A stretch of DNA of 64,000 bases from Alphaproteobacteria bacterium (GTDB taxonomy: Bacteria > Pseudomonadota > Alphaproteobacteria > Caulobacterales > Hyphomonadaceae): assembly GCA_018830285.1 (NCBI GenBank), contig JAHJSB010000055.1, forward strand, positions 62,001 to 126,000, read 5' to 3'. Under the pieces are notes generated by a model. The model was not told the origin of the DNA. It did no database searches and saw nothing but the letters and a program-made list of their open reading frames with translations. Position 1 is the first letter of the stretch; each line of letters opens with the position of its first letter. Positions 2,159-62,056 of the stretch are shown here, in pieces. A program made the position numbers and the translations under genes.

Positions 2159-2197
2159 TAGTTATTCCGTGGCGGCCAGGAAAGGCGCGAGAAAGAC

Positions 2198-3484
2198 GTG
2201 TCATTGAAGACAGCGCTTATTTCCCGAATCGCGGAAGGTCTGACCGGCGAACCGCAGCTGCTTGTCCGGCGCGCAAAGGCCGAACGGCAACGTTTGGCTA
2301 AAAACGCGCCGCATGTGGTCGAGTATTTCCATCAGGCCGACGATCCCTATTCCCATCTTGCCGCGCAAGTCCTGTCTGAGTTAACCGAGCGCTTCGACAT
2401 CGATCTCAAGGTCCATCTGGTCGGACATCCACCCGATTGGGCCGCGCCTGAACGCGAACGCCTTGAAGCCTACGCCCGCACCGACGCCGAAACCCTTGCA
2501 CAAAAAGCGGGCCTCGCTTTTCACGATCCCGGCAAACAGCCCGGCAAGGCGGCACGCATTACTGCGCTTCGTTCACTCGCCAGCGCCGTTTCGGAGAATG
2601 CATTTTCCACCCAGGCCCCTGTGATTGGCCGTCAGCTTTGGTCAGGCGACCAGGATGCGATAGGTGCGTCCTCAACAACGTCAGCCGACGAGATCACCGC
2701 AGCTGGCGATGCACGCCGGGCGGAACTGGGCCACTACCTAGGCGCGATGTTCCACTATGGCGGCGAATGGTATTGGGGCATAGACCGCCTCCATTATCTG
2801 GAATCCCGCCTGACCGAACTCGGCGCCCGCACAGCGCCCGGCGACACCCCCCGCTTTGTCCCTCCACTGGTGCCGTCGACCCGCATCGCGCCGGCCTCGG
2901 CGCCCGGCAAGGAATTGCACTACTATCTCTCTTTCCGCAGTCCCTACACGTACATCGCTGCACAGCGCGCGAAAGCGCTGGCCGATGCCTATGGCGCCGA
3001 CCTGAAGCTGCGCTTCGTGCTGCCCATGGTGATGCGCGGCCTGCCGGTACCGCGCATGAAGAGTCGCTACATCACACTCGACACGGCCCGCGAGGCGCGC
3101 CGCCTCAGTATCCCGTTCGGACGAATCGCCGATCCCGTCGGCCGCCCGGTCGAACGCGGCTATTCCCTCATCCCATGGGCCCGCGAACAGGGGCGTGGCT
3201 TCGAGTTCTGCCAGGCATTTCTCGCAGGCGTCTGGTCACGTGGCGTCGATGCCGGATCCGACCGGGGCATGAAACAGGTCGTGGAAGCAGCGGGCCTCGA
3301 CTGGCAGGCCGGTCGCGACATTCTCGGCAATGATGACTGGCGCGCCGAAGCTGAAGACAACCGCACTGAAATGATGGCGCTCGGAATCTGGGGCGTGCCC
3401 AGCTTCCGGGTCGGTAAGACAGCGACATGGGGCCAGGACCGGCTCTGGCTTGTCGAGGACGCACTCAAACAGCCGCAGAGCTGA
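2198..3484 (+). CDS. Tandem DsbA-fold (HCCA isomerase/GST-kappa-like) protein
   Basis: A protein of 428 residues that appears to carry two copies of the thioredoxin-fold domain seen in 2-hydroxychromene-2-carboxylate isomerases and kappa-class GSTs. The first copy starts near residue 40 (VEYFHQADDPYSHLAA) and the second near 243 (LHYYLSFRSPYTYIAA). The second ends with the usual GVPSF turn near the C-terminus. No CxxC pair is visible, so disulfide chemistry is unlikely; glutathione-dependent isomerase or transferase activity is possible. The start is a GTG with a purine-rich AGGAAAGG region upstream. It is the first gene of a rightward string of five. The exact reaction cannot be told from sequence. 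Confidence 0.75.
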   Translation: MSLKTALISRIAEGLTGEPQLLVRRAKAERQRLAKNAPHVVEYFHQADDPYSHLAAQVLSELTERFDIDLKVHLVGHPPDWAAPERERLEAYARTDAETLAQKAGLAFHDPGKQPGKAARITALRSLASAVSENAFSTQAPVIGRQLWSGDQDAIGASSTTSADEITAAGDARRAELGHYLGAMFHYGGEWYWGIDRLHYLESRLTELGARTAPGDTPRFVPPLVPSTRIAPASAPGKELHYYLSFRSPYTYIAAQRAKALADAYGADLKLRFVLPMVMRGLPVPRMKSRYITLDTAREARRLSIPFGRIADPVGRPVERGYSLIPWAREQGRGFEFCQAFLAGVWSRGVDAGSDRGMKQVVEAAGLDWQAGRDILGNDDWRAEAEDNRTEMMALGIWGVPSFRVGKTATWGQDRLWLVEDALKQPQS

Positions 3485-3507
3485 CGAAAAGGAAAAGAGG
3501 AAACACC

Positions 3508-3978
3508 ATGCAAGTTATCAATGAAGTCTTCCCCACGGATCCGTCGCGCATGCAAGCCATGCTGGAGAAAGGCCCTGACGGTCCGATCTTCATGGTCAAC
3601 CTGCTGAAGTTCAGGGACAAGGCGGAGTATGACGACGGGCGCGAGACCGATCTCTCGGGACGAGACGCCTACATGATCTACGGGCGCGCCGTAACCGACG
3701 TTTTGCCTCTCTTCGGCGGTCGGGGCATTTTCGCAGGTGACGTGACCTTTCTTGCCCTTGGGCAGGTCGAAGAACTCTGGGACGAAGTCGCCATCGCCAT
3801 GTATCCGGATCGCGCCGCCATGGTAAAAATGTCGATGTCACCCGAATGGCAAGACATCTCCGTGCACCGCGCAGCCGGCCTGAAAGGCCAGTTGAACATA
3901 GAGACTGTCGCGCCGAACGGCGGCAAGGGCTCACCCTTCCTCGCAATGCTCATGGGCGCAAACGGAGACCAATCATGA
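3508..3978 (+). CDS. DUF1330-like dimeric alpha/beta-barrel protein
   Basis: A small soluble protein of 156 residues. The segment FMVNLLKFRDKAEYDDG and the later YPDRAAMVKM region match the pattern of DUF1330 and related ferredoxin-like dimeric alpha/beta-barrel proteins. The function of the family is not established; some relatives bind or modify small aromatic compounds. The ATG at 3508 is preceded by an AAAAGAGGA ribosome-binding site. The stop codon overlaps the start of the metallo-hydrolase gene (ATGA), which indicates translational coupling. Confidence 0.65.
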   Translation: MQVINEVFPTDPSRMQAMLEKGPDGPIFMVNLLKFRDKAEYDDGRETDLSGRDAYMIYGRAVTDVLPLFGGRGIFAGDVTFLALGQVEELWDEVAIAMYPDRAAMVKMSMSPEWQDISVHRAAGLKGQLNIETVAPNGGKGSPFLAMLMGANGDQS

Positions 3979-5063
3979 AATGGCTCGTACGCAGCCTTGT
4001 CGGCATCATATGTCTGGCCGTTGTGGCCATGCTCGGGTTTCAGCTCTTCAAGACGCAGATTGCCGAGGTCGCATTCAAAAGGGTGGCCGAGGCCAATGTC
4101 GGCCGCGACGCCAGCACAGAGCTGCCGGACGGACTACACGTCTTCATGTGCGGCGCCGGCACGCCTCTGCCTGACCCATTGCGCGCAGGCCCCTGCCTGG
4201 GCGTGATCGCGGGCGACCGTGCGTTCGTTTTCGATGCCGGTTCCGGCGGCACGCGCAACCTCACCCGCATGCGTTTCCCGCTTGGCCGTACAGAACGCGT
4301 CTACCTGACCCACCTACATTCCGATCATATGGACGGCCTCGGCGAGTTGCTGATGCAAGTCTGGGTAAACGGCCATCGGGCCGAACCCCTTCCCGTTTCC
4401 GGTCCACGCGGTGTCGATGAAGTCGTCGACGGCTTCAACGCGGCCTACCGGATAGACGGAACATTCCGAACCGCGCATCACGGCGCCGGCATTGCCAATC
4501 CGGCAGGTCGGGGCGGCTTCGGCGAAGCCATCACGCTGCCGGCGGGTCCCGGCTCACGCGCGGTCGTCCTCGACGAGAACGGGCTCAGGATCACGGCATT
4601 CTCGGTCAGCCATGCACCCGTCGAACCCGCATTCGGTTACCGCGTCGATTACAAGGGCCGTTCGGTCGCGATCAGCGGAGACACGATCTATGATCCGAAC
4701 CTCGTTGCCGTTTCCGAAGGCGTGGACATTCTCTTCCATGAAGCCCTGGACCCGGAAATGGTCGGCGCGATGCATGATGCCGCCGCCGCCAAGGGTGCGG
4801 ATCACCTCGCGAAAATTCTCGACGATATCCTCACCTACCACGCACCGCCCGTCGACGCGGCGCGGGCGGCGACCGAAGCGGGCGCGCGGCAACTCGTTTT
4901 CTATCACACGATCCCGCCCCTGCCCTCGCGCCTGCTCAACGACTATTACGTGCGCGACGCGAAGAAGGCATTTGACGGCAAGATCACCGTGTCGGAAGAC
5001 GGCATGGTGTTCAGCCTGCCGGCGGACAGCGACGCAATCAATCGCCATGACGGGTTTAGATGA
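3975..5063 (+). CDS. Membrane-anchored MBL-fold hydrolase (RNase Z-like)
   Basis: Metallo-beta-lactamase-fold hydrolase of 362 residues with an N-terminal hydrophobic segment (about residues 4-24) that serves as a signal anchor, so the catalytic domain should be in the periplasm. The zinc-binding motif HLHSDHMDG is complete, with further histidines in the segments SVSHAP and FYHTIPP. The overall order resembles the RNase Z/arylsulfatase branch of the superfamily, but an exported member is not a tRNA-processing enzyme. It more likely hydrolyses an ester, lactone or sulfate ester. It overlaps both neighbours by ATGA. Confidence 0.8.
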   Translation: MKWLVRSLVGIICLAVVAMLGFQLFKTQIAEVAFKRVAEANVGRDASTELPDGLHVFMCGAGTPLPDPLRAGPCLGVIAGDRAFVFDAGSGGTRNLTRMRFPLGRTERVYLTHLHSDHMDGLGELLMQVWVNGHRAEPLPVSGPRGVDEVVDGFNAAYRIDGTFRTAHHGAGIANPAGRGGFGEAITLPAGPGSRAVVLDENGLRITAFSVSHAPVEPAFGYRVDYKGRSVAISGDTIYDPNLVAVSEGVDILFHEALDPEMVGAMHDAAAAKGADHLAKILDDILTYHAPPVDAARAATEAGARQLVFYHTIPPLPSRLLNDYYVRDAKKAFDGKITVSEDGMVFSLPADSDAINRHDGFR

Positions 5064-5674
5064 CCATATCGAAAATCACGCCCTTTCCCGGCCCGCAGGC
5101 CAATGACGACTCCTCTGACGGACGGCGTCAGCGCAGCGAGCGTAGCCGGACGCAAATTGTCGACGCCCTGTTCGCCCTGATCCGGGAAGGCGACATGAAC
5201 CCCAGCGCCGCCCGAGTCGCCGAACGGGCCGCTGTCGGCCAGCGCACCGTATTTCGCCTGTTCGAAGACATGGACAGCCTCTTCGGCGAAATGGCCGAGC
5301 AGATACAGGCCGAGATCATGCCGATCGTACTGGCGCCTTACACTGCTACGGACTGGAAAGAGCGGCTTGGCGAAATGGTCCGTCGACGGGCCGATGTCTA
5401 TGAGCGAATTTTCCCGGTCCGGGTTTCGGCCAATCTCAGGCGATTCCAGTCGCGTTTCCTGATGGACGAATATCGCCGCAACCTCATACTCGAGCGTGAG
5501 AGCCTGAAGGCCGTGCTGCCGGCGGATCGGGCATCCGACAAGCAGCTTGTCGCCGCGCTGGATGTCGTTACCGGCTTCCAGGCCTGGCGCCGCCTGCGTC
5601 AGGACCAGGGCCTGTCCGCCCAGGAGGCTCAAGCGGTCATGCAGTTCATGGTCGATGGCCTGATCGCCACATGA
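5060..5674 (+). CDS. TetR/AcrR-family transcriptional regulator
   Basis: DNA-binding regulator of 204 residues. The N-terminal third has the TetR-type helix-turn-helix (around residues 30-75, with AVGQRTVFRLFEDMDSLFG as the recognition part). The rest is a helical ligand-binding and dimerisation domain without obvious similarity to a known ligand class. It is embedded in a rightward gene string and overlaps the genes on both sides by four bases. It probably controls this string and perhaps the facing dehalogenase-sulfatase string. Palindromes at 2140-2158 and 10333-10355 are possible operators; this link is inference. Confidence 0.85.
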   Translation: MTISKITPFPGPQANDDSSDGRRQRSERSRTQIVDALFALIREGDMNPSAARVAERAAVGQRTVFRLFEDMDSLFGEMAEQIQAEIMPIVLAPYTATDWKERLGEMVRRRADVYERIFPVRVSANLRRFQSRFLMDEYRRNLILERESLKAVLPADRASDKQLVAALDVVTGFQAWRRLRQDQGLSAQEAQAVMQFMVDGLIAT

Positions 5675-6573
5675 ACCGATGCGTCGCAGTCGTGCTCCTG
5701 CTGTTGGGACCGGCTTGCAGCAAAGCCGTTCCGCTGCTCCCGGCGGAGGCATCCTGCGGACTGCCCCACGCCGCAATCGGACGATTCGTGTCGCTTCCGG
5801 ACGGCAGCTTCATTAAAGGCGACAGGCCGCACTATCCGGAAGAATCGCCCCGGCTCTCGCTTCACGTCGACGCCTTCAGCCTCCAGGCCCATGAAGTCAC
5901 CAACGACCAGTTCGCCGCCTTCGTTCGCGAAACGGGGTACACGACCGACGCAGAACAGAGCGCCAAAATTGGTGGCCCCGGAGCTGGCTCGGCCGTCTTC
6001 GATCTCCCGGGAACAGGAACCATGAAACTGGATCCGTGGCGACTCGTGCCTGGTGCGACCTGGACAGCACCAACCGGCCCCGGCTCGTCAATCGCGGGCC
6101 TGGGCGCCTATCCCGTCATCCACGTCTCCGAGCGTGACGCAGCGGCCTATGCCGCGTGGGCTGGTGGAAGACTCCCGACAGAGACCGAATGGGAATACGC
6201 GGCCACGCTGGGCCTCGCGGACCCAGAAATGCCCTCCTCCGGCGCCTACGATGCCGCTGGCGCGCCGGTCTCCAATACATGGCAGGGCATTTTTCCGGTC
6301 GCGAACACCATGGCCGACGGCTTTGAAGGCGCTGCGCCGGTCGGCTGCTTTCCCGCCAGCCGGGTCGGCCTCTACGACATGATCGGCAATGTCTGGGAAT
6401 GGACCGATACGCCCTACAGTCCCGGCGCACACACGCTCAAGGGCGGCTCATACCTGTGCGCCGACAATTTCTGCCGCCGTTACCGGCCAGCCGCGCGCCA
6501 GCCGCAGGATAGCGATTTTTCGTCAGTTCACATCGGCTTCCGGATCGCAAAAGATCTGCCGCAAGCGAAGTAA
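5671..6573 (+). CDS. Exported formylglycine-generating enzyme (SUMF1/FGE family)
   Basis: FGE-sulfatase domain protein of 300 residues. FGE oxidises the cysteine of the sulfatase CxPSR motif to formylglycine. The C-terminal part contains GNVWEWT and then KGGSYLCADNFCRRYR. The two cysteines (residues 263 and 268) have the same spacing as the active-site cysteine pair of true FGEs, which are missing in many FGE-like proteins of other function. The N-terminus (residues 5-16) is strongly hydrophobic and ends in a cysteine, so the protein should be secreted or a lipoprotein. It overlaps the TetR gene by ATGA and faces a sulfatase gene 18 bp away, its likely client. Confidence 0.85.
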   Translation: MNRCVAVVLLLLGPACSKAVPLLPAEASCGLPHAAIGRFVSLPDGSFIKGDRPHYPEESPRLSLHVDAFSLQAHEVTNDQFAAFVRETGYTTDAEQSAKIGGPGAGSAVFDLPGTGTMKLDPWRLVPGATWTAPTGPGSSIAGLGAYPVIHVSERDAAAYAAWAGGRLPTETEWEYAATLGLADPEMPSSGAYDAAGAPVSNTWQGIFPVANTMADGFEGAAPVGCFPASRVGLYDMIGNVWEWTDTPYSPGAHTLKGGSYLCADNFCRRYRPAARQPQDSDFSSVHIGFRIAKDLPQAK

Positions 6574-6591
6574 CCCCTCATCGGCGCCCCC

Positions 6592-8256
6592 TCAGTTCGG
6601 CCACCAGACATATTCATCGTCCGGCCCGACGGCGTCAGCCGCCGTCTTGTCGATCGCGACCGGCGACTCGATCGTATACGGGTAAAGCGGCGTCACCGCA
6701 TCGGCCAGGTGCGCGTCAAGCAATGCCTGCAATTCCGCCAATTTGCCAGGCTGCGTCTCGGCCAGATTCACCTGCTCGGTCGGATCATTCGCGAGATCGA
6801 ACAACCAGCTCTTTTTCTGTCGTCCGTCCACTTGCAGCTTCCAGTCACCGGCCCGCACGACATGATAGTATCCGCTCTGCCAGAACAGGGCGTCGTCCGG
6901 ATGCGAAATTGTTCCCGTCCCTGTCGCAACCGGCAACATGTCGCGCCCGTCAATGACGACTCCCTCTGGTAGCGATGCCCCAGCTGCGGATGCCAGCGTC
7001 GGCATCACGTCGATATGCGCAACCGGTGCATCGACCCGCGTTCCGGGCGTGATCTTCGCCGGCCATTTGACGAACATCGGCACACGGATACCGCCCTCGA
7101 ACAGCGTGATCTTCCAGCCGCGATAGGGCTGGTTGATCTCCGGCAAGCCGATATAGCCCGCGCCGCCATTGTCGCTGGAAAAAACGATGATTGTATTGTC
7201 GGCAAGGCCCTCATCTTCCAGCTTTGCCGTGATCGCGCCAACACTGCGGTCCAGTGCCCGCAGCATGGCTGCATAAACGCGCAACCGATGCGGTTCGATA
7301 TCACCCACCGCCTCATAGTCTTCCTTTGTCGCCTGCAGCGGCGTGTGAACGCCCCAATGCGCCAGGTACAGGAAGAACGGCCGGTTACGGTTCGCCTCAA
7401 TCACTTTCAGGCTTTCATCCGTCCAATAGTCCGTCAGGTAGCCACCGGGTGCAAACCAGTCGCCCGAATTGAACGCAGCCGCGAACTGCATCCGCGCCCA
7501 GAGGAATGTGTCGATCGGGTCGAAATCGAGCTTGGCGTTCACGACATTCGGATCGTCCTCAGGCAGGAACAGGCCGCTGGCCATCAAAAGGCTTTCGTCA
7601 AAACCCTGCGCGTTCGGATTCGATTCCGCGCTGCGGCCCAGGTGCCATTTGCCGATATGCACCGTGTGATAGCCTTGTGCTTTGAGCACTTCGGCAATCG
7701 TCACTTCTGATCCCGGCAGCCCCATTTCCGCGAACGGAACCGCATCATCCGCCGCATCGCGATTGTAGTCGACAGGCGGAAGCGCCCCGCGATCCATGTC
7801 ATTGGCAAACATCGAAACGACCTTGCCCATGCCCGGGGGCGTCGGTGTGAACGCGAACCCGGTCCGTGTGGGATAACGCCCCGTCATCAGCATCGCGCGC
7901 GACGGCGCGCAAGTACCATTGCCAGCATAGGCCTGCGTGAACAGCGCGCCATCGGTCGCCAGCCTGTCGATATTCGGCGTCGGCACGCGTCCGCCGGCGA
8001 CACCGCCACCAAACGCGCTGAGATCATTGATGCCCAGATCATCCACCAGGATGAAGACGATGTTCGGCGGTCGGTCAGCAGCAGGCAGCGCTGCCACATG
8101 AGGGCCCTTGTCCCACACGACCGGAACATTGGGCGCCACCTCGGTCCGGCCGTTATGGGTCGCCACATAGAGGATCACGGCCTTGCGGTTCAGGAAGCCG
8201 ATCACACCGGCGCCCAACAGCACGACCACCAGGCCGATAACGAGTTTCTTCCACAT
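6592..8256 (-). CDS. Membrane-anchored type I sulfatase
   Basis: Alkaline-phosphatase-superfamily sulfatase of 554 residues. It has the metal ligands DD (residues 72-73), the formylglycine signature CAPSR (Cys116) followed by LMTGRYPTRTG, the GKWHLG motif and SSDNGG, so all main catalytic blocks are present. One N-terminal hydrophobic helix (about residues 4-22) places the enzyme outside the inner membrane. The ATG at 8256 has a GGGGAG site upstream; a longer frame runs into the preceding gene. It follows the GST-like gene by 19 bp on the same strand and converges on the FGE gene. The substrate is not predictable. Confidence 0.9.
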   Translation of the reverse strand: MWKKLVIGLVVVLLGAGVIGFLNRKAVILYVATHNGRTEVAPNVPVVWDKGPHVAALPAADRPPNIVFILVDDLGINDLSAFGGGVAGGRVPTPNIDRLATDGALFTQAYAGNGTCAPSRAMLMTGRYPTRTGFAFTPTPPGMGKVVSMFANDMDRGALPPVDYNRDAADDAVPFAEMGLPGSEVTIAEVLKAQGYHTVHIGKWHLGRSAESNPNAQGFDESLLMASGLFLPEDDPNVVNAKLDFDPIDTFLWARMQFAAAFNSGDWFAPGGYLTDYWTDESLKVIEANRNRPFFLYLAHWGVHTPLQATKEDYEAVGDIEPHRLRVYAAMLRALDRSVGAITAKLEDEGLADNTIIVFSSDNGGAGYIGLPEINQPYRGWKITLFEGGIRVPMFVKWPAKITPGTRVDAPVAHIDVMPTLASAAGASLPEGVVIDGRDMLPVATGTGTISHPDDALFWQSGYYHVVRAGDWKLQVDGRQKKSWLFDLANDPTEQVNLAETQPGKLAELQALLDAHLADAVTPLYPYTIESPVAIDKTAADAVGPDDEYVWWPN

Positions 8257-8275
8257 CGGTGCAGGCTCCCCGGCC

Positions 8276-9301
8276 TTAGTCAAACAGTGTTTCGCAACCC
8301 GTTCCGGATAAAAGGGCGCCGACGGCGCCGCGTTCATTTCCGGACAGGGCTTCATATCCCTCGCGCAACCATTTCAGGCACTTGGCCTGATAGGGAAAGC
8401 TGGGCTGTGTCCAGGCACGGCCGTCAATCTCTGTCTCGAAGTTTTTCTCGCCCGCCATGACGGCCTTGGCATTGGCGATCAGGAAAGGCGCATAGACGCG
8501 CCCGATCTCCGCCAGGAGCGGCGCCAGCGCCTCCCGAGCCTCATCTGCCCCGAACCAGTCGTCTTCCAGCGGATCAAGACCCGACAGGTCTTCCATGAGG
8601 TCGACCCAGGCCCTCACCCGCGGCGAGCGCGATACCGTAATCGCCGCAGATGTTGGTTCGACAATGGCAAGCTGGGTGAGTTGGCCATAGAGTGCAAAAT
8701 CCGCCGAAGACGGACGCCCGCCCAGCACGAAACCCTTCTTCTGAAGCAGCTCATTAAGAATCCCGATCAGGCGGGAATAGGAGGATTCAATCGTCTTCGC
8801 CGTGACGTCATTCGACCCGACGACATAGAGCCGGTCGAACTGTCGCTTGGAAATCGCGTCCGAAACCTTGCCAGCGCTCTCGGCATCCAGCGTATTCTGC
8901 GACCAATAGATGAGCAGCGGTCCGGCATTGTCATAATCGGCCTGATGGGCCCAGCGGAAATGAAACATCGCCTTGGTCAGCCATTCGTCGGCATAATCCT
9001 CGATCAGGTCATTCAGGAATGACAGGACAGGATCGGACGGAATCACGGAGCGGCCCGTATGTTCGGATTCCAGCCGCCGTATGATCGGTGTCGAATCCGT
9101 CACGGCCGTCATGGCGCCGTCTCCATCGGGATAGTAGAAGGTCGGCAACAGGGGCACTTTCGGCACCGGGTAGCCCGGCTTCGGGGACCGTCCCGCAGAC
9201 CAGCTCACCTGGTAGGGAATGCGGCGATAGCGCAGCAGTGCAACCATCTTGCGGGTATACGGAGAGCCCGGCGCGCCCATCAGTTCCAGCGGTGCAGTCA
9301 T
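8276..9301 (-). CDS. Glutathione S-transferase family protein
   Basis: A protein of 341 residues with an N-terminal thioredoxin-like GST domain. The segment GAPGSPYTRKMVALLRYRRIPY is the typical first strand-helix unit, and DSTPIIRRLE fits the glutathione-binding loop with a DS pair. The remaining two thirds are helical and longer than in classical GSTs of about 200-230 residues. It lies between the haloalkane dehalogenase gene (13 bp) and the sulfatase gene (19 bp), all leftward, and is probably cotranscribed with them. The ATG at 9301 with a GAGGA site is preferred over an in-frame upstream start inside the dehalogenase gene. Confidence 0.8.
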   Translation of the reverse strand: MTAPLELMGAPGSPYTRKMVALLRYRRIPYQVSWSAGRSPKPGYPVPKVPLLPTFYYPDGDGAMTAVTDSTPIIRRLESEHTGRSVIPSDPVLSFLNDLIEDYADEWLTKAMFHFRWAHQADYDNAGPLLIYWSQNTLDAESAGKVSDAISKRQFDRLYVVGSNDVTAKTIESSYSRLIGILNELLQKKGFVLGGRPSSADFALYGQLTQLAIVEPTSAAITVSRSPRVRAWVDLMEDLSGLDPLEDDWFGADEAREALAPLLAEIGRVYAPFLIANAKAVMAGEKNFETEIDGRAWTQPSFPYQAKCLKWLREGYEALSGNERGAVGALLSGTGCETLFD

Positions 9302-9314
9302 GTTCGCGGCGTCC

Positions 9315-10328
9315 TCATGTTTCCTGGATGAAAGCGATGATTTCCTTGGAGAGCGCTTCTGGCTGGTCTTCCTGCAGGAAGTGGCCGGCACCCTTGATCG
9401 TGACATTCTTCACATTGCCAAGACGTTTGATAAAGGCCTGCTCGCCGCCTTTCGTCACCGGGTCGCCATCGCTGAAGGCTGTCAGCACGGGAAAATTGCG
9501 CGCTTCCAGCACGGCCCACGCGGCATCGCCTGCAATCCGGTCGGCCTTATGTTGCGGCAGCAACGGAACGCAGGACGGAAATTTCCGGGCACCTGCCACA
9601 TGGTTTTCATCCGGGAATGGCGCTTCATATCCGTCCAGCACCGCGTCATCGGAAATATTGGACAGCAGCCCGAACACGTCGCGCACCGAAAAGTCCGGCG
9701 CCTCGGCACAATACTTAATCCAGTAGAGGAACGCGCCGGGCGTACCGCCGGAAAACTGTTCCTGGACCATCGCGGCGGTCGGAACAGGGACCATCGGATA
9801 CATCTTCCCCATCATGTTCGAGATATCGTCTGTCAGCGTCGTCGTATTGGGCAGGCCCGTATTGGCGATCACGAGGCGCTTGAACCGGCCCGGCTGGTCG
9901 CCGACGGCGCGCAGGCCGAGCAGACCGCCCCAGTCCTGGCACATCAGGGTCAGGCCGGTCAGGTCGAGACCGCTAAGGAACTGGTTCATCCAGTCGACAT
10001 GGCCGGCATAGGTGTAATCATCGACCGATGCTGGTTTGTCGGACTTGCCAAAGCCCACAAGGTCCGGCGCGATGACCCGGTACCCCGCACCTGTCAGGAT
10101 CGGGATCATCTTGCGGTAAAGAAAACTCCAGCTTGGCTGTCCGTGCAGGCAGAGGATGATCTCGCCATCGCGTGGCCCCTCATCGACATAATGCATGCGC
10201 AATTCGGTGCCGTCCTGCGCCTGGACGACATGATAATGCGCCGCGAAGGCGTAGTCTTTCAATTGCGCGAAACGGGTCTCTGGCGTTCTCAGAACATCCA
10301 CGGCAGGGCCTCCCTTTTCGCTAGACAT
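9315..10328 (-). CDS. Haloalkane dehalogenase-like alpha/beta hydrolase (HLD-I type)
   Basis: Alpha/beta-hydrolase of 337 residues closely resembling haloalkane dehalogenases. HGQPSW at 62-67 is the oxyanion-hole loop. The nucleophile is Asp132 in CQDWGG, followed by the halide-binding Trp133. Asp289 in FSDGDP is the probable catalytic acid and His316 in GAGHFLQE the base. The lack of the asparagine found after HG in subfamilies II and III points to subfamily I (DhlA-like). Activity on halogenated substrates is inferred; some members act on other esters or epoxides. It is the first gene of a leftward string and has a palindrome immediately upstream. Confidence 0.85.
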   Translation of the reverse strand: MSSEKGGPAVDVLRTPETRFAQLKDYAFAAHYHVVQAQDGTELRMHYVDEGPRDGEIILCLHGQPSWSFLYRKMIPILTGAGYRVIAPDLVGFGKSDKPASVDDYTYAGHVDWMNQFLSGLDLTGLTLMCQDWGGLLGLRAVGDQPGRFKRLVIANTGLPNTTTLTDDISNMMGKMYPMVPVPTAAMVQEQFSGGTPGAFLYWIKYCAEAPDFSVRDVFGLLSNISDDAVLDGYEAPFPDENHVAGARKFPSCVPLLPQHKADRIAGDAAWAVLEARNFPVLTAFSDGDPVTKGGEQAFIKRLGNVKNVTIKGAGHFLQEDQPEALSKEIIAFIQET

Positions 10329-10332
10329 AATT

Positions 10333-10355
10333 TATTGGCATCGATACTGTCAATA
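10333..10355. promoter_or_regulatory. Operator-like palindrome upstream of the dehalogenase gene
   Basis: The 8-bp arms TATTGGCA and TGTCAATA (one mismatched pair) are separated by seven bases, 4-27 bp upstream of the ATG at 10328. The sequence TTGACA, a possible -35 element, is part of the palindrome when read on the minus strand. A dimeric repressor bound here would block transcription or translation initiation of the dehalogenase-GST-sulfatase string. The TetR protein encoded at 5060 is the nearest candidate, but no direct evidence links them. Confidence 0.4.
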
Positions 10356-10461
10356 CAATGAATTGGCGCGGGGACGCACGCGGTCTGTACTTTGGGCCTG
10401 AATGCATACTCTATGTTCAGCGAAGCGGGCCAAAATCACGAGCCCGCGCAGGGAGGATAAG

Positions 10462-10851
10462 GTGATCTGGATTGCACGCGCAGGCGTTACGCTTGCCGGA
10501 CTATTTTCGCTGGCCATGGGCCTTCTGTTCTGGGCGGACCCGGTGAAAGCTGGCGCGATACTCGGCCTGACAAGTATCGATGCCCTCGGAACGAATTCCC
10601 TGCGCGCGGATTTGGCGGCCTTCTTCCTCGTCAACTTCATCGCCTGCACGCTCGCGCTTTTCCGCGGCAAGGCCCATTGGCTATACGGCTCTGCGCTGGT
10701 TTTCGGTTTGGCCGTATCCGGACGCTTCATCGGCGTCATCATTGACGGCGCCCCGGCCGGAATCGCGCAACCCGTAATTATCGAACTCGTGCTTGTTGGC
10801 CTGCTTATCTTCGGCGCACGCCAGCTCGGCCCGCGCACCCCCTCAAGCTGA
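10462..10851 (+). CDS. DUF4345-like small integral membrane protein
   Basis: A membrane protein of 129 residues with about four hydrophobic helices. The order matches the DUF4345 family: a first helix with a GLLFWADP end, a central LRADLAAFFL segment, a GRFIGVIIDG loop and a last hydrophobic helix ending in an arginine. Function is unknown. The GTG at 10462 is chosen because GGGAGGA lies eight bases upstream; an upstream ATG at 10402 would add a charged leader with no ribosome-binding site. Its 3' end overlaps the convergent glpD gene by nine bases. Confidence 0.7.
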   Translation: MIWIARAGVTLAGLFSLAMGLLFWADPVKAGAILGLTSIDALGTNSLRADLAAFFLVNFIACTLALFRGKAHWLYGSALVFGLAVSGRFIGVIIDGAPAGIAQPVIIELVLVGLLIFGARQLGPRTPSS

Positions 10852-59482: not shown

Positions 59483-62056
59483 ATGGCCACCCGTTACGAT
59501 CCGCAGGCCGCGGAAACCAGATGGCGTGCCGCATGGGACGCAGCAGACCTTTTCAAGGCGAAATCGCCCGCCGAGGCGGGTGACGCGCCCAAGGCATACA
59601 TCCTTGAAATGTTCCCCTATCCGTCGGGCCGGGTGCACATGGGCCATGTGCGCAATTATGCCATGGGCGACGTCGTTGCCCGCCATCGCCGCGCCAATGG
59701 ATACAACGTGCTCCACCCCATGGGTTGGGATGCGTTCGGAATGCCGGCCGAGAATGCTGCGCTCCAGCGCGGCGTCCATCCGGGTAAATGGACCTATGAG
59801 AACATTGCCGCGATGCGCGCCCAGCTGAAGAAGCTGGGCTTGTCGCTCGACTGGAGCCGGGAATTTGCGACATGCGATCCGGACTATTACGGCGCACAGC
59901 AGGCCCTGTTCCTGAAGATGCTCGACAAGGGTCTCGTCTATCGCAAGGCGAGCAAGGTCAACTGGGACCCGGTCGACAATACGGTGCTGGCCAATGAACA
60001 GGTCGTCGATGGCCGGGGCTGGCGTTCCGGTGCCGTGGTCGAGCAACGCGAGCTCACCCAGTGGTTCTTCCGCATCACCCATTATGCCGACGACTTGCTG
60101 CAAGAAGTGCAAAAGCTCGAACGCTGGCCGGAAAAAGTCCGCACCATGCAGGCGAACTGGATCGGCCGGTCTGAAGGCCTTCAGATGCGCTTCGAATTTT
60201 CCGGCGAGACGCCAGCGGGTTTCGAAAACGGCGTCGATATTTTCACGACCCGACCCGACACCCTGTTCGGCGCGAGCTTCATCGCCCTGTCACCTGATCA
60301 TCCGCTGACGCTCCAGCTGGCCCAGGGCAATACCGCTCTCACGGCCTTCCGCGCCGAGTGCGCCGCTGTCGGTACCAGCGAGGAGGCCATCGAAAAGGCG
60401 CCCAAGCTCGGATTCGATACCGGCCTCACAGTCCAGCACCCGTTCGATCCCGAGCGCACTCTGCCCGTATGGGTCGCGAACTTCGTGCTGATGGGATACG
60501 GCACAGGCGCCATATTCGGCTGCCCTGCCCATGACCAGCGCGACATCGAATTTGCCCGCAAATATGGCCTGGACGTCGTGCCCGTCGTCTTGCCGCCCAA
60601 TGCCGACCCGGCAACGTTCGACGTGCAGGACGACGCCTATACCGGACCTGGCACGATTTTCCATTCCGGCTTCCTTGATGGCCTCGCCATCGACGACGCC
60701 AAGCGGATGGCGATTTCGAAGATCGAATCCCAGGGCCTCGGCGAGGGCAAGGTCAACTATCGCCTGCGTGACTGGGGCGTCTCGCGCCAGCGCTATTGGG
60801 GCTGCCCCATTCCGATCGTGCATTGCGAAGCGTGCGGCATTGTCCCGGTCCCTGCCGACGAGCTGCCCTTGCGCCTGCCGGACGATGTGACTTTCGACAA
60901 GCCGGGCAATCCGCTGGAACGGCACGCGACATGGAAAGATACGACCTGCCCGACCTGCAAAGGCAAGGCGCGGCGCGAAACCGATACGCTCGACACGTTC
61001 GTCGACAGTTCCTGGTATTGGGCCCGGTTCGCCAGCCCGGACGACATGGCTGAACGCGCCTATTGGCTGCCCGTCGACCAATATGTCGGCGGCGTTGAAC
61101 ATGCCGTCCTGCACCTGCTCTATGCGCGCTTCTTTGCCCGCGCGATGCGCGATGTCGGGGAACTGGACCTGCCGAGCGGCGAACCTTTTGCCGGCCTGTT
61201 CACGCAAGGCATGGTGACCCACGAGACCTACAAGTCGGCAAAGGGCGACTGGCTCGAGCCCTCCGACGTCGCGTTCAAGGACGGCGCCTGGTTCGAGATT
61301 GCGACGGGCGCGCCTGCGAGCGTCGGTCCGATCGAGAAAATGTCCAAGTCGAAAAAGAACACGGTCGACCCGGACGCCATCATCCAGGCCTTCGGGGCGG
61401 ACACCGCGCGCTGGTTCGTGCTGTCGGACTCGCCCCCTGAGCGCGATGTCGAATGGACACAATCTGGCGCCGAAGGCGCCGCCCGTTTCGTGCAGCGCAT
61501 CTGGAGCATCTTCGATGCACTGCCAGACTCAAAGGCGCCAGCGCCAGGCACAGACGAGGCCTCGATTGCCTTGCGAAAGGCATCGCACAAGGCGGTCGCG
61601 GCCATCGACAAGGCGATCAACGAGTTCCGCTTCAATTCAGCCGTCGCCAGCATCCATGAATGGGTCACGGCATTGAAGAAGGCCGAGGCCGAGGCCGATA
61701 CCGGCTCGGTCACCGGCGCACGGTTCGAGGGCGCGTCCATGCTGGCCCGTTGCCTCACACCCTTCATGCCACATCTGGCTGAATCCTGCTGGGAACGGCT
61801 TGGCGAATTCGGCTTCGTATCTGCAGCGGTCTGGCCCATGCCGGACCCGGCCCTGCTGGAAGATGACAGTGTCACCATGGCGGTTCAGGTGAACGGCAAG
61901 CGCCGGGGCGAAATAACTGTCTCCAAAGCGCTGACGAAGGATGCGGTCGAAGCTGCGGCCTTTGCCGAACCCGATGTCGCAACCTTCCTGGATGGCAAGG
62001 TCGTCAAAAAAACCATTGTCGTTCCCGGTCGCATCGTGAATATCGTGGTCGCATGA
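59483..62056 (+). CDS. leuS: Leucyl-tRNA synthetase
   Basis: Class I synthetase of 857 residues charging tRNA(Leu). The HIGH-type motif [15 protein letters not shown] lies near residues 40-55, the editing domain spans roughly 220-420, and the KMSKS motif [13 protein letters not shown] lies at about 618-630. AAAAGGAG lies upstream. Its end overlaps lptE by ATGA. Confidence 0.98.

Follow-up and report, generated by a model that had tools for sequence, protein, structure and literature searches.

The locus considered here raises the question of whether two strings of genes that face each other, carrying sulfatase, dehalogenase and glutathione-type functions between them, belong to one system, and on what kind of compound such a system would act. 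It lies in a 64 kb window (positions 62,001 to 126,000 of contig JAHJSB010000055.1, assembly GCA_018830285.1) from an alphaproteobacterium of the Hyphomonadaceae, and all coordinates below are positions in this window. As the same palindrome stands at the head of both strings, they are best read as one regulon controlled by a TetR-family protein, and the residues and N-termini of the encoded proteins suggest that this regulon is probably catabolic.

Gene content and layout of the locus

The rightward string comprises the genes of DsbA2, a DUF1330 protein, a metallo-beta-lactamase-fold hydrolase (MBL), a TetR-family regulator (TetR) and a formylglycine-generating enzyme (FGE), in this order, and the leftward string those of a haloalkane dehalogenase (HLD), a glutathione S-transferase (GST) and a sulfatase (Sulf).

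2140–2158, no strand: palindromic putative operator ATGGCAT-N5-ATGCCAT heading the rightward string, matching WTGRCA-N7-TGYCAW
2198–3484, plus strand: DsbA2, a tandem DsbA-fold protein with a GTG start (PF01323; PDB 3fz5, 2imd and 1r4w by profile)
3508–3978, plus strand: DUF1330 protein (PF07045, 25.2 bits against a cut-off of 23)
3975–5063, plus strand: MBL-fold hydrolase, predicted to be membrane-anchored, with HxHSDH, similar to RNase Z and AtsA arylsulfatase (PF12706/PF00753)
5060–5674, plus strand: TetR-family regulator, proposed binder of both operators (PF00440, 22.2 against a cut-off of 24 and thus slightly below it)
5671–6573, plus strand: FGE with a C-x4-C pair, predicted to be exported, with a lipoprotein-like N-terminus (PF03781, 200.6 bits)
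6592–8256, minus strand: Sulf, a type I sulfatase with CAPSR and a predicted membrane-anchored N-terminus (PF00884, 192 bits)
8276–9301, minus strand: GST of about 341 amino acids (GST_N_3 and GST_C_2), with relatives in other clusters
9315–10301, minus strand (open reading frame to 10328): HLD, a haloalkane dehalogenase of HLD-I type (NF002043, 400.6 bits against a cut-off of 265)
10335–10353, no strand: palindromic putative operator TTGGCAT-N5-CTGTCAA heading the leftward string, matching WTGRCA-N7-TGYCAW

The last three junctions of the rightward string are ATGA overlaps (at 3975, 5060 and 5671), and DsbA2 and the DUF1330 gene are 23 bp apart. The leftward gaps measure 13 bp (HLD/GST) and 19 bp (GST/Sulf), and 18 bp separate the 3' ends of the two strings. 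No rho-independent terminator is found between them (6574–6591), and the five terminator-like matches in 2160–10420 are below the shuffle expectation of 6.9. The initial annotation had described five rightward genes facing three leftward ones, and its coordinates, ATGA overlaps and 13 and 19 bp gaps are borne out; its gene list is refined in two respects, as its title omitted the DUF1330 protein (PF07045) and as the HLD probably starts at the GTG at 10301 and not at the end of the open reading frame at 10328, because this GTG has GGGAGG, similar to a Shine-Dalgarno sequence, 7 nt upstream and solved HLD homologues begin there.

A putative palindromic operator shared by both strings

The pattern WTGRCA-N7-TGYCAW (consensus type ATGGCAC-N5-GTGCCAT) was first read off the upstream regions of DsbA2 genes and is present upstream of many DsbA2 orthologues. 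The window contains exactly two sites (2140–2158 and 10335–10353), one per string head, where 0.04 are expected, and none of 100 shuffles of the window has two; an inverted repeat (2133–2147/2151–2165) surrounds the site of the rightward string. The whole genome (3.56 Mb) has eight sites, against none for the pattern read backwards; three are intergenic at gene heads, and the five inside coding sequence are set aside as background. The same palindrome thus heads each unit of the window and is rare elsewhere.

Across 53 loci including the present one (902,376 bp), 65 sites are found, with 45 loci having one. All except one fall within a span from 250 bp before to 30 bp past the start of a gene of the set, namely DsbA2 (23), HLD (20), GST (8), a second sulfatase family termed Sulf2 (7), DUF1330 (3), and Sulf, TetR and MBL (1 each); leaving out L217 and L219, two loci fetched because of their sites, the count is 62 of 62. 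Palindromes with permuted arms yield far fewer sites, with a mean of 0.72 and a maximum of 21 (reached by one) among 200 of them, and a mean of 0.81 for all 719 other arm orders, whose best give 21, 21, 21, 19, 19 and 17. Several of these top arms overlap the real one, e.g. ATG[AG]C[AT], which is not the case for GA[AT]C[AG]T (19 sites). Spacers of 4–6 and 8–10 yield 0–2 sites. As some of the counted loci had supplied the pattern and many of the genomes are related, these counts describe the association rather than test it. Among the 65, the sole strict site away from genes of the set is L217:8987-9005 (G028), just past Sulf2 and near the contig end.

By a weight matrix, a site precedes the unit-heading gene in 23/23 cases for HLD, 17/22 for DsbA2, 20/25 for Sulf2 and 7/8 for DUF1330, counts that are partly circular. 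In six genomes the HLD gene lies apart from the cluster, and in five of them a strict site stands directly before it. A more distant HLD paralogue of the same genome as the window (G000:C44, 37% identity) lacks a strict site upstream and has a matrix score of 7.2, below the threshold of 7.9, a single case. On another contig of this genome, the gene of an orthologue of Sulf2 (61% identity) overlaps that of a second GST-like protein (GST2, 30% to the window GST; L259:10211-13159, G000:C21), and just upstream of the pair lies a one-mismatch site scoring 15.7 against a background 99th percentile of 7.9. The genome has 175 sites at one mismatch or fewer, against 22 for the control, so that this site is weak as a single case, and one-mismatch sites, being too numerous, were rejected as evidence in their own right.

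The TetR of the rightward string is proposed as the binder of this palindrome. Its predicted recognition-helix stretch, RTVFR(H/L)F, is kept in all 36 TetR rows compared, beside the conserved palindrome, and together with the position of the gene this is consistent with the regulatory role that had been suggested for it. The two strings very probably constitute one shared regulon, and the common operator argues against their being independently expressed.

Conservation and gene order in other genomes

DsbA2 was sought in 81 genomes including that of the window, 42 of them of the same genus. It has a match at E ≤ 1e-10 in 41 and an orthologue-grade match (E ≤ 1e-70) in 33, of which 23 belong to the genus. 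Thirteen of the 33 mapped loci including the window (12 of 32 relatives) share the order DsbA2-DUF1330-MBL-TetR-FGE with Sulf pointing towards it, with HLD behind Sulf in 12 of these 13 (11 of 12 relatives). A GST gene stands between Sulf and HLD in the window and in the relative G015 alone among the mapped loci, and G015 has no FGE there. Within the fetched stretches, no more than 4 of 32 relatives have the flanking genes UppP, epimerase, GlpD and BolA along with the block, therefore the set occupies different chromosomal places. A search over named genomes, of which the best 80 loci were kept, all anchored on DsbA2, includes Hyphomonas, Henriciella, Phycosocius, Aquidulcibacter, Burkholderiales and Moraxellaceae. 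Hyphomonas polymorpha PS728, for example, has DsbA2, DUF1330, TetR, FGE, Sulf and Sulf2, and its HLD gene lies apart from them. The neighbourhood comparison that the initial annotation had called for thus finds the block conserved in relatives in its core order, and its gene families turn up in other arrangements in many aquatic bacteria, from the Alpha-, Beta- and Gammaproteobacteria.

Clustering of the open reading frames picked from 87 loci gives exactly nine families present in at least 14 loci: DsbA2 (74), MBL (39), Sulf (39), Sulf2 (34), FGE (27), TetR (27), GST (23), HLD (18) and DUF1330 (14). These counts are lower bounds, as the picking loses genes, including the window's own TetR and HLD. 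Of the 83 loci with at least one of the nine families, 42 have at least four and 23 just one. Within the genus, HLD orthologues (E ≤ 1e-147) occur in 22 of 42 genomes and Sulf orthologues (E ≤ 1e-190) in 33 of 42, one of which, in G031, is split into two frames.

In G031 the Sulf orthologue (L218:8716-10403) consists of two overlapping frames, the genome has no DsbA2 match, and its single FGE-family match shows no cysteine pair in a motif search; the set is apparently decaying there. The HLD orthologues of L060 (G005) and L206 (G023) each contain one internal stop codon.

Sulfatases, their maturases and the MBL-fold hydrolase

Sulf contains the C-x-P-S-R of type I sulfatases as CAPSR, which aligns with 6prm at the formylglycine position. 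The cysteine is present in every one of the 39 rows covering it (the fortieth is truncated), and all 34 rows of Sulf2 have it too. The best PDB matches of Sulf are carrageenan sulfatases, though distant. Polysaccharide degradation was considered and rejected, as no glycoside hydrolase is found among the nameable ones of the twelve families present in at least seven loci (family c9 has no Pfam or NCBIfam match, and c10 no match in NCBIfam, the only library applied to it).

The FGE contains GGSYLCADNFC, which aligns to the FGE structure 1y1e with C-x4-C kept, and the cysteine pair is present in 27 of 27 relatives; this is the catalytic pair of aerobic FGE. In L154, the gene after MBL encodes an anaerobic sulfatase maturase (anSME; TIGR03942, 482.5 bits against a cut-off of 349.45), and L153 and L160 have the same enzyme by close homology to that of L154; no FGE is found in the examined stretches of these three betaproteobacterial loci. 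Since two unrelated maturases fill one role, sulfatase maturation appears to belong to the set. All four genomes tested whose cluster has no FGE in the usual place (G015, G013, G017 and G044) do encode an FGE that has the cysteine pair, at another place or on the far side of DsbA2.

The best PDB match of MBL is 8gyg ('Arysulfatase', E 4.4e-17), and PNGM-1 and RNase Z match too; the metal motif HxHSDH is present in 39 of 39 relatives. By a crude hydrophobicity count, hydrophobic N-termini are found in 38/39 MBL, 34/40 Sulf, 24/34 Sulf2 and 17/27 FGE proteins, and 19/27 FGE proteins have a lipobox-like motif. The corresponding numbers for the putatively cytoplasmic members are 0/18 for HLD, 0/30 for GST and 1/74 for DsbA2, the DsbA2 of the window having no hydrophobic N-terminus. 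This pattern points to desulfation on the outside, with dehalogenation and glutathione chemistry inside, and the hydrophobic N-terminus of MBL makes a role in tRNA processing unlikely. Hydrolysis of sulfate esters by sulfatases with a maturase of their own is very likely a function of the set.

A protein of 564 amino acids (L078:1719-3413, G000:C44; FGE match in L191), encoded near a DUF3604 operon, has an FGE-sulfatase domain with no cysteine pair found by motif search, and a TIR-like N-terminus as judged by eye. A family of about 430 amino acids with no Pfam or NCBIfam match occurs in 13 betaproteobacterial loci (L177:12840-14123 and 12 others), and in L147, L154, L157, L177, L180 and L184 it directly follows Sulf2.

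Haloalkane dehalogenase and glutathione-type proteins

The nearest solved structures of the HLD are the haloalkane dehalogenases 6f9o, 5esr and 4mj3, which we take to be members of HLD-I and, respectively, the proteins DpcA, DccA and DmrA. It aligns to 6f9o over two stretches (11–161 and 199–336) and has the residues of HLD-I in QDWGG, the cap tryptophan of a FLYW stretch, FSDGDP and GHFLQE. In HLD-I enzymes the aspartate nucleophile adjoins a tryptophan, the cap tryptophan binds the halide, a further aspartate is the catalytic acid and the histidine is the base. The Asp-Trp pair is present in 18 of 18 HLD relatives and the cap tryptophan in 17 of 18, Betaproteobacteria included. Judged from these residues, true dehalogenation by the HLD is on balance the better expectation.

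The initial annotation had spoken of a glutathione-type isomerase, a name that one half of DsbA2 may fit. The serine motif SxxSPY in a DsbA fold marks 2-hydroxychromene-2-carboxylate (HCCA) isomerase and kappa GST, and the C-terminal half, similar to these two, keeps it; the N-terminal half is degenerate, with DDPYSH in its place. A regular expression of SxxSPY type matched 56 of 74 DsbA2 relatives, and the eight inspected of the 18 misses are all betaproteobacterial.

Proposed mechanism and alternative explanations

The TetR of the rightward string would act as a repressor and bind the palindrome at the heads of both strings and perhaps, in the same genome, also that before Sulf2-GST2 on the other contig; an inducing ligand would free both strings together and tune the level of the repressor itself. 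The exported FGE would convert the active-site cysteine of the sulfatase to formylglycine, the membrane-anchored Sulf and the AtsA-like MBL hydrolase would cleave sulfate esters outside the cytoplasm, and the cytoplasmic HLD-I enzyme with the two glutathione-type proteins (DsbA2 and GST) would process the desulfated product. Operon-like spacing, the common palindrome, conservation, intact catalytic residues and hydrophobic N-termini are read from the sequence, and the pairing of repressor and operator, the order of compartments and dehalogenation in vivo are what we infer. One catabolic regulon of membrane-anchored desulfation, cytoplasmic dehalogenation and glutathione-linked steps is the probable reading. 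The stepwise breakdown of a halogenated or sulfated compound, as proposed in the initial annotation, is thereby supported in part, to the extent that the catalytic residues of the sulfatase, FGE, dehalogenase and MBL are kept.

Several observations weigh against this catabolic regulon. A scan for the sigma-70 consensus finds no promoter at either operator (the whole stretch has 2 promoter-like pairs, where 1.9 are expected). The full eight-gene order is seen only in the window genome among the 32 relatives and the best 80 named loci, and 41 of 83 loci have at most three of the nine families, by lower-bound counts. GST, HLD, DUF1330 and FGE are each absent from some clusters, DsbA2 is found with no partner in the examined stretches of L047, L058, L063 and Limnobacter and Pseudovibrio loci, and the HLD orthologue has an internal stop in two of 22 genus genomes. 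In Phycosocius, Aquidulcibacter and three further loci, five in all, an epoxide hydrolase gene lies near Sulf with no HLD nearby, so that the chemistry common to the clusters may not involve a halide. To these points are added the relatedness of the counted loci and the partial circularity of both the site and the matrix counts.

The alternative that survives best is the scavenging of sulfate esters, with no real dehalogenation, where the HLD-like protein would act on epoxides or other electrophiles while GST and DsbA2 detoxify a reactive product. DsbA2 has a sulfatase for a partner more often than an HLD (39 loci for Sulf and 34 for Sulf2 against 18, all lower bounds), which together with the five epoxide hydrolase clusters speaks for this explanation; it is nevertheless unlikely, as the near-invariant Asp-Trp pair and cap tryptophan and the alignment with 6f9o are those of a dehalogenase, and as the operator before HLD is the best kept of all (partly circular as this count is). 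A general xenobiotic defence, in which TetR would sense electrophiles or aryl sulfates and govern unrelated detoxifying hydrolases and GSTs with no single substrate, would suit families that are common in detoxification (TetR, GST, MBL and HLD) and members that come and go among genomes. An FGE reserved for the set and sulfatases anchored in the membrane, all behind one operator, would be a high cost for such a purpose, however, and no efflux pump is found among the nameable ones of the twelve families (two have no library match), which leaves this explanation improbable. That two independent operons are adjacent by chance can hardly be true, even though the exact block occurs in one genome only among the mapped loci and FGE and GST are not constant among its closest relatives, given the common operator at both heads and the recurrence of the set in other gene orders and at other chromosomal sites.

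Candidate additional members

One further gene adjoins the operator of the leftward string:

10402–10851, plus strand: DUF4345 gene (PF14248), divergent from HLD across the operator, a possible further member

A DUF4345 relative lies across the operator from Sulf in L045 (Hyphomonas), and the gene may for this reason belong to the regulon.

A DUF3604-PpiC-HupE operon of the same genome (L078:4276-7973, G000:C44) has a strict site 27 nt upstream, and the clusters of L157, L165 and L169 contain genes of DUF3604 and/or HupE (tested for HupE only in L169). Of 30 DUF3604 loci in the genus, counting paralogues, 1 has a strict site; this operon may be a member of the regulon.

FadD or FadE/FadI relatives are found near 8 of 20 betaproteobacterial loci outside Limnobacter. 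They give a mere hint of a lipid substrate, because the queries came from three of the same loci and no background rate is available.

Substrate and significance

Provided that one compound is the target of all members, a substrate bearing both a sulfate ester and a halogen fits best. Chlorosulfolipids, which are described in passages of PMC13413282 as carrying sulfate and up to 11 chlorines, as products of freshwater chrysophytes and as present in coastal water of the Eastern Pacific at times of algal bloom, are such compounds. That the regulon is a bacterial pathway for their breakdown is a bold candidate, which stands on gene content only and is rather doubtful. The two sulfatases with their own exported maturase might then take off the sulfates, the HLD and the glutathione enzymes, or an epoxide hydrolase in some lineages, might treat the chlorines and chlorohydrins, and beta-oxidation might end the chain. 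The parts of the open-licence literature that were searched yielded no paper on bacterial breakdown of chlorosulfolipids.

Each enzyme family of the set except DUF1330 has a known chemistry, and it is their joint control by one operator that the open-licence papers searched do not describe. The regulon ties an HLD-I dehalogenase to dedicated sulfatases and a maturase, and the natural substrate is therefore narrowed, probably to a compound with a sulfate ester and a halogen. According to a passage of PMC10619424, what HLDs do in biology is still little understood; the chlorosulfolipid pathway, if true, would provide a natural role for at least one clade of HLD-I dehalogenases. The operator may also serve as a reporter for screening candidate substrates.

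Comparison with known systems

The initial annotation knew this combination of families from no described pathway, in agreement with searches of open-licence PMC papers, which found none; the parts are ordinary, and the regulon they form is well supported and, within these searches, undescribed. The HLD of the window shares with the HLD-I dehalogenases DccA, DpcA and DmrA the Asp-Trp nucleophile pair and the cap tryptophan, and we know of no sulfatase-containing regulon for these three enzymes. Similar to the present set, the SLF module for alkyl sulfate degradation on the Psychrobacter plasmid pP62BP1 is a compact regulated cluster removing a sulfate ester (PMC10779009), but it has an AraC/XylS regulator, an alkyl sulfatase, an alcohol dehydrogenase, an aldehyde oxidoreductase and an acyl-CoA ligase, and the passages of PMC10779009 on the module name no FGE, HLD or GST, with HLD mentioned once elsewhere in that paper. 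The MBL of the window resembles the MBL-fold arylsulfatase (8gyg) and RNase Z in sequence and in the HxHxDH metal motif, and differs from RNase Z in the hydrophobic N-terminus of its family. In FGE-sulfatase pairs, likewise, an FGE with C-x4-C is encoded beside a CxPSR sulfatase; unlike in these pairs, the FGE of the window type appears to be exported and often lipoprotein-like, three loci of the set have anSME in place of FGE, and the maturase belongs to an operator-controlled set together with an HLD and GSTs.

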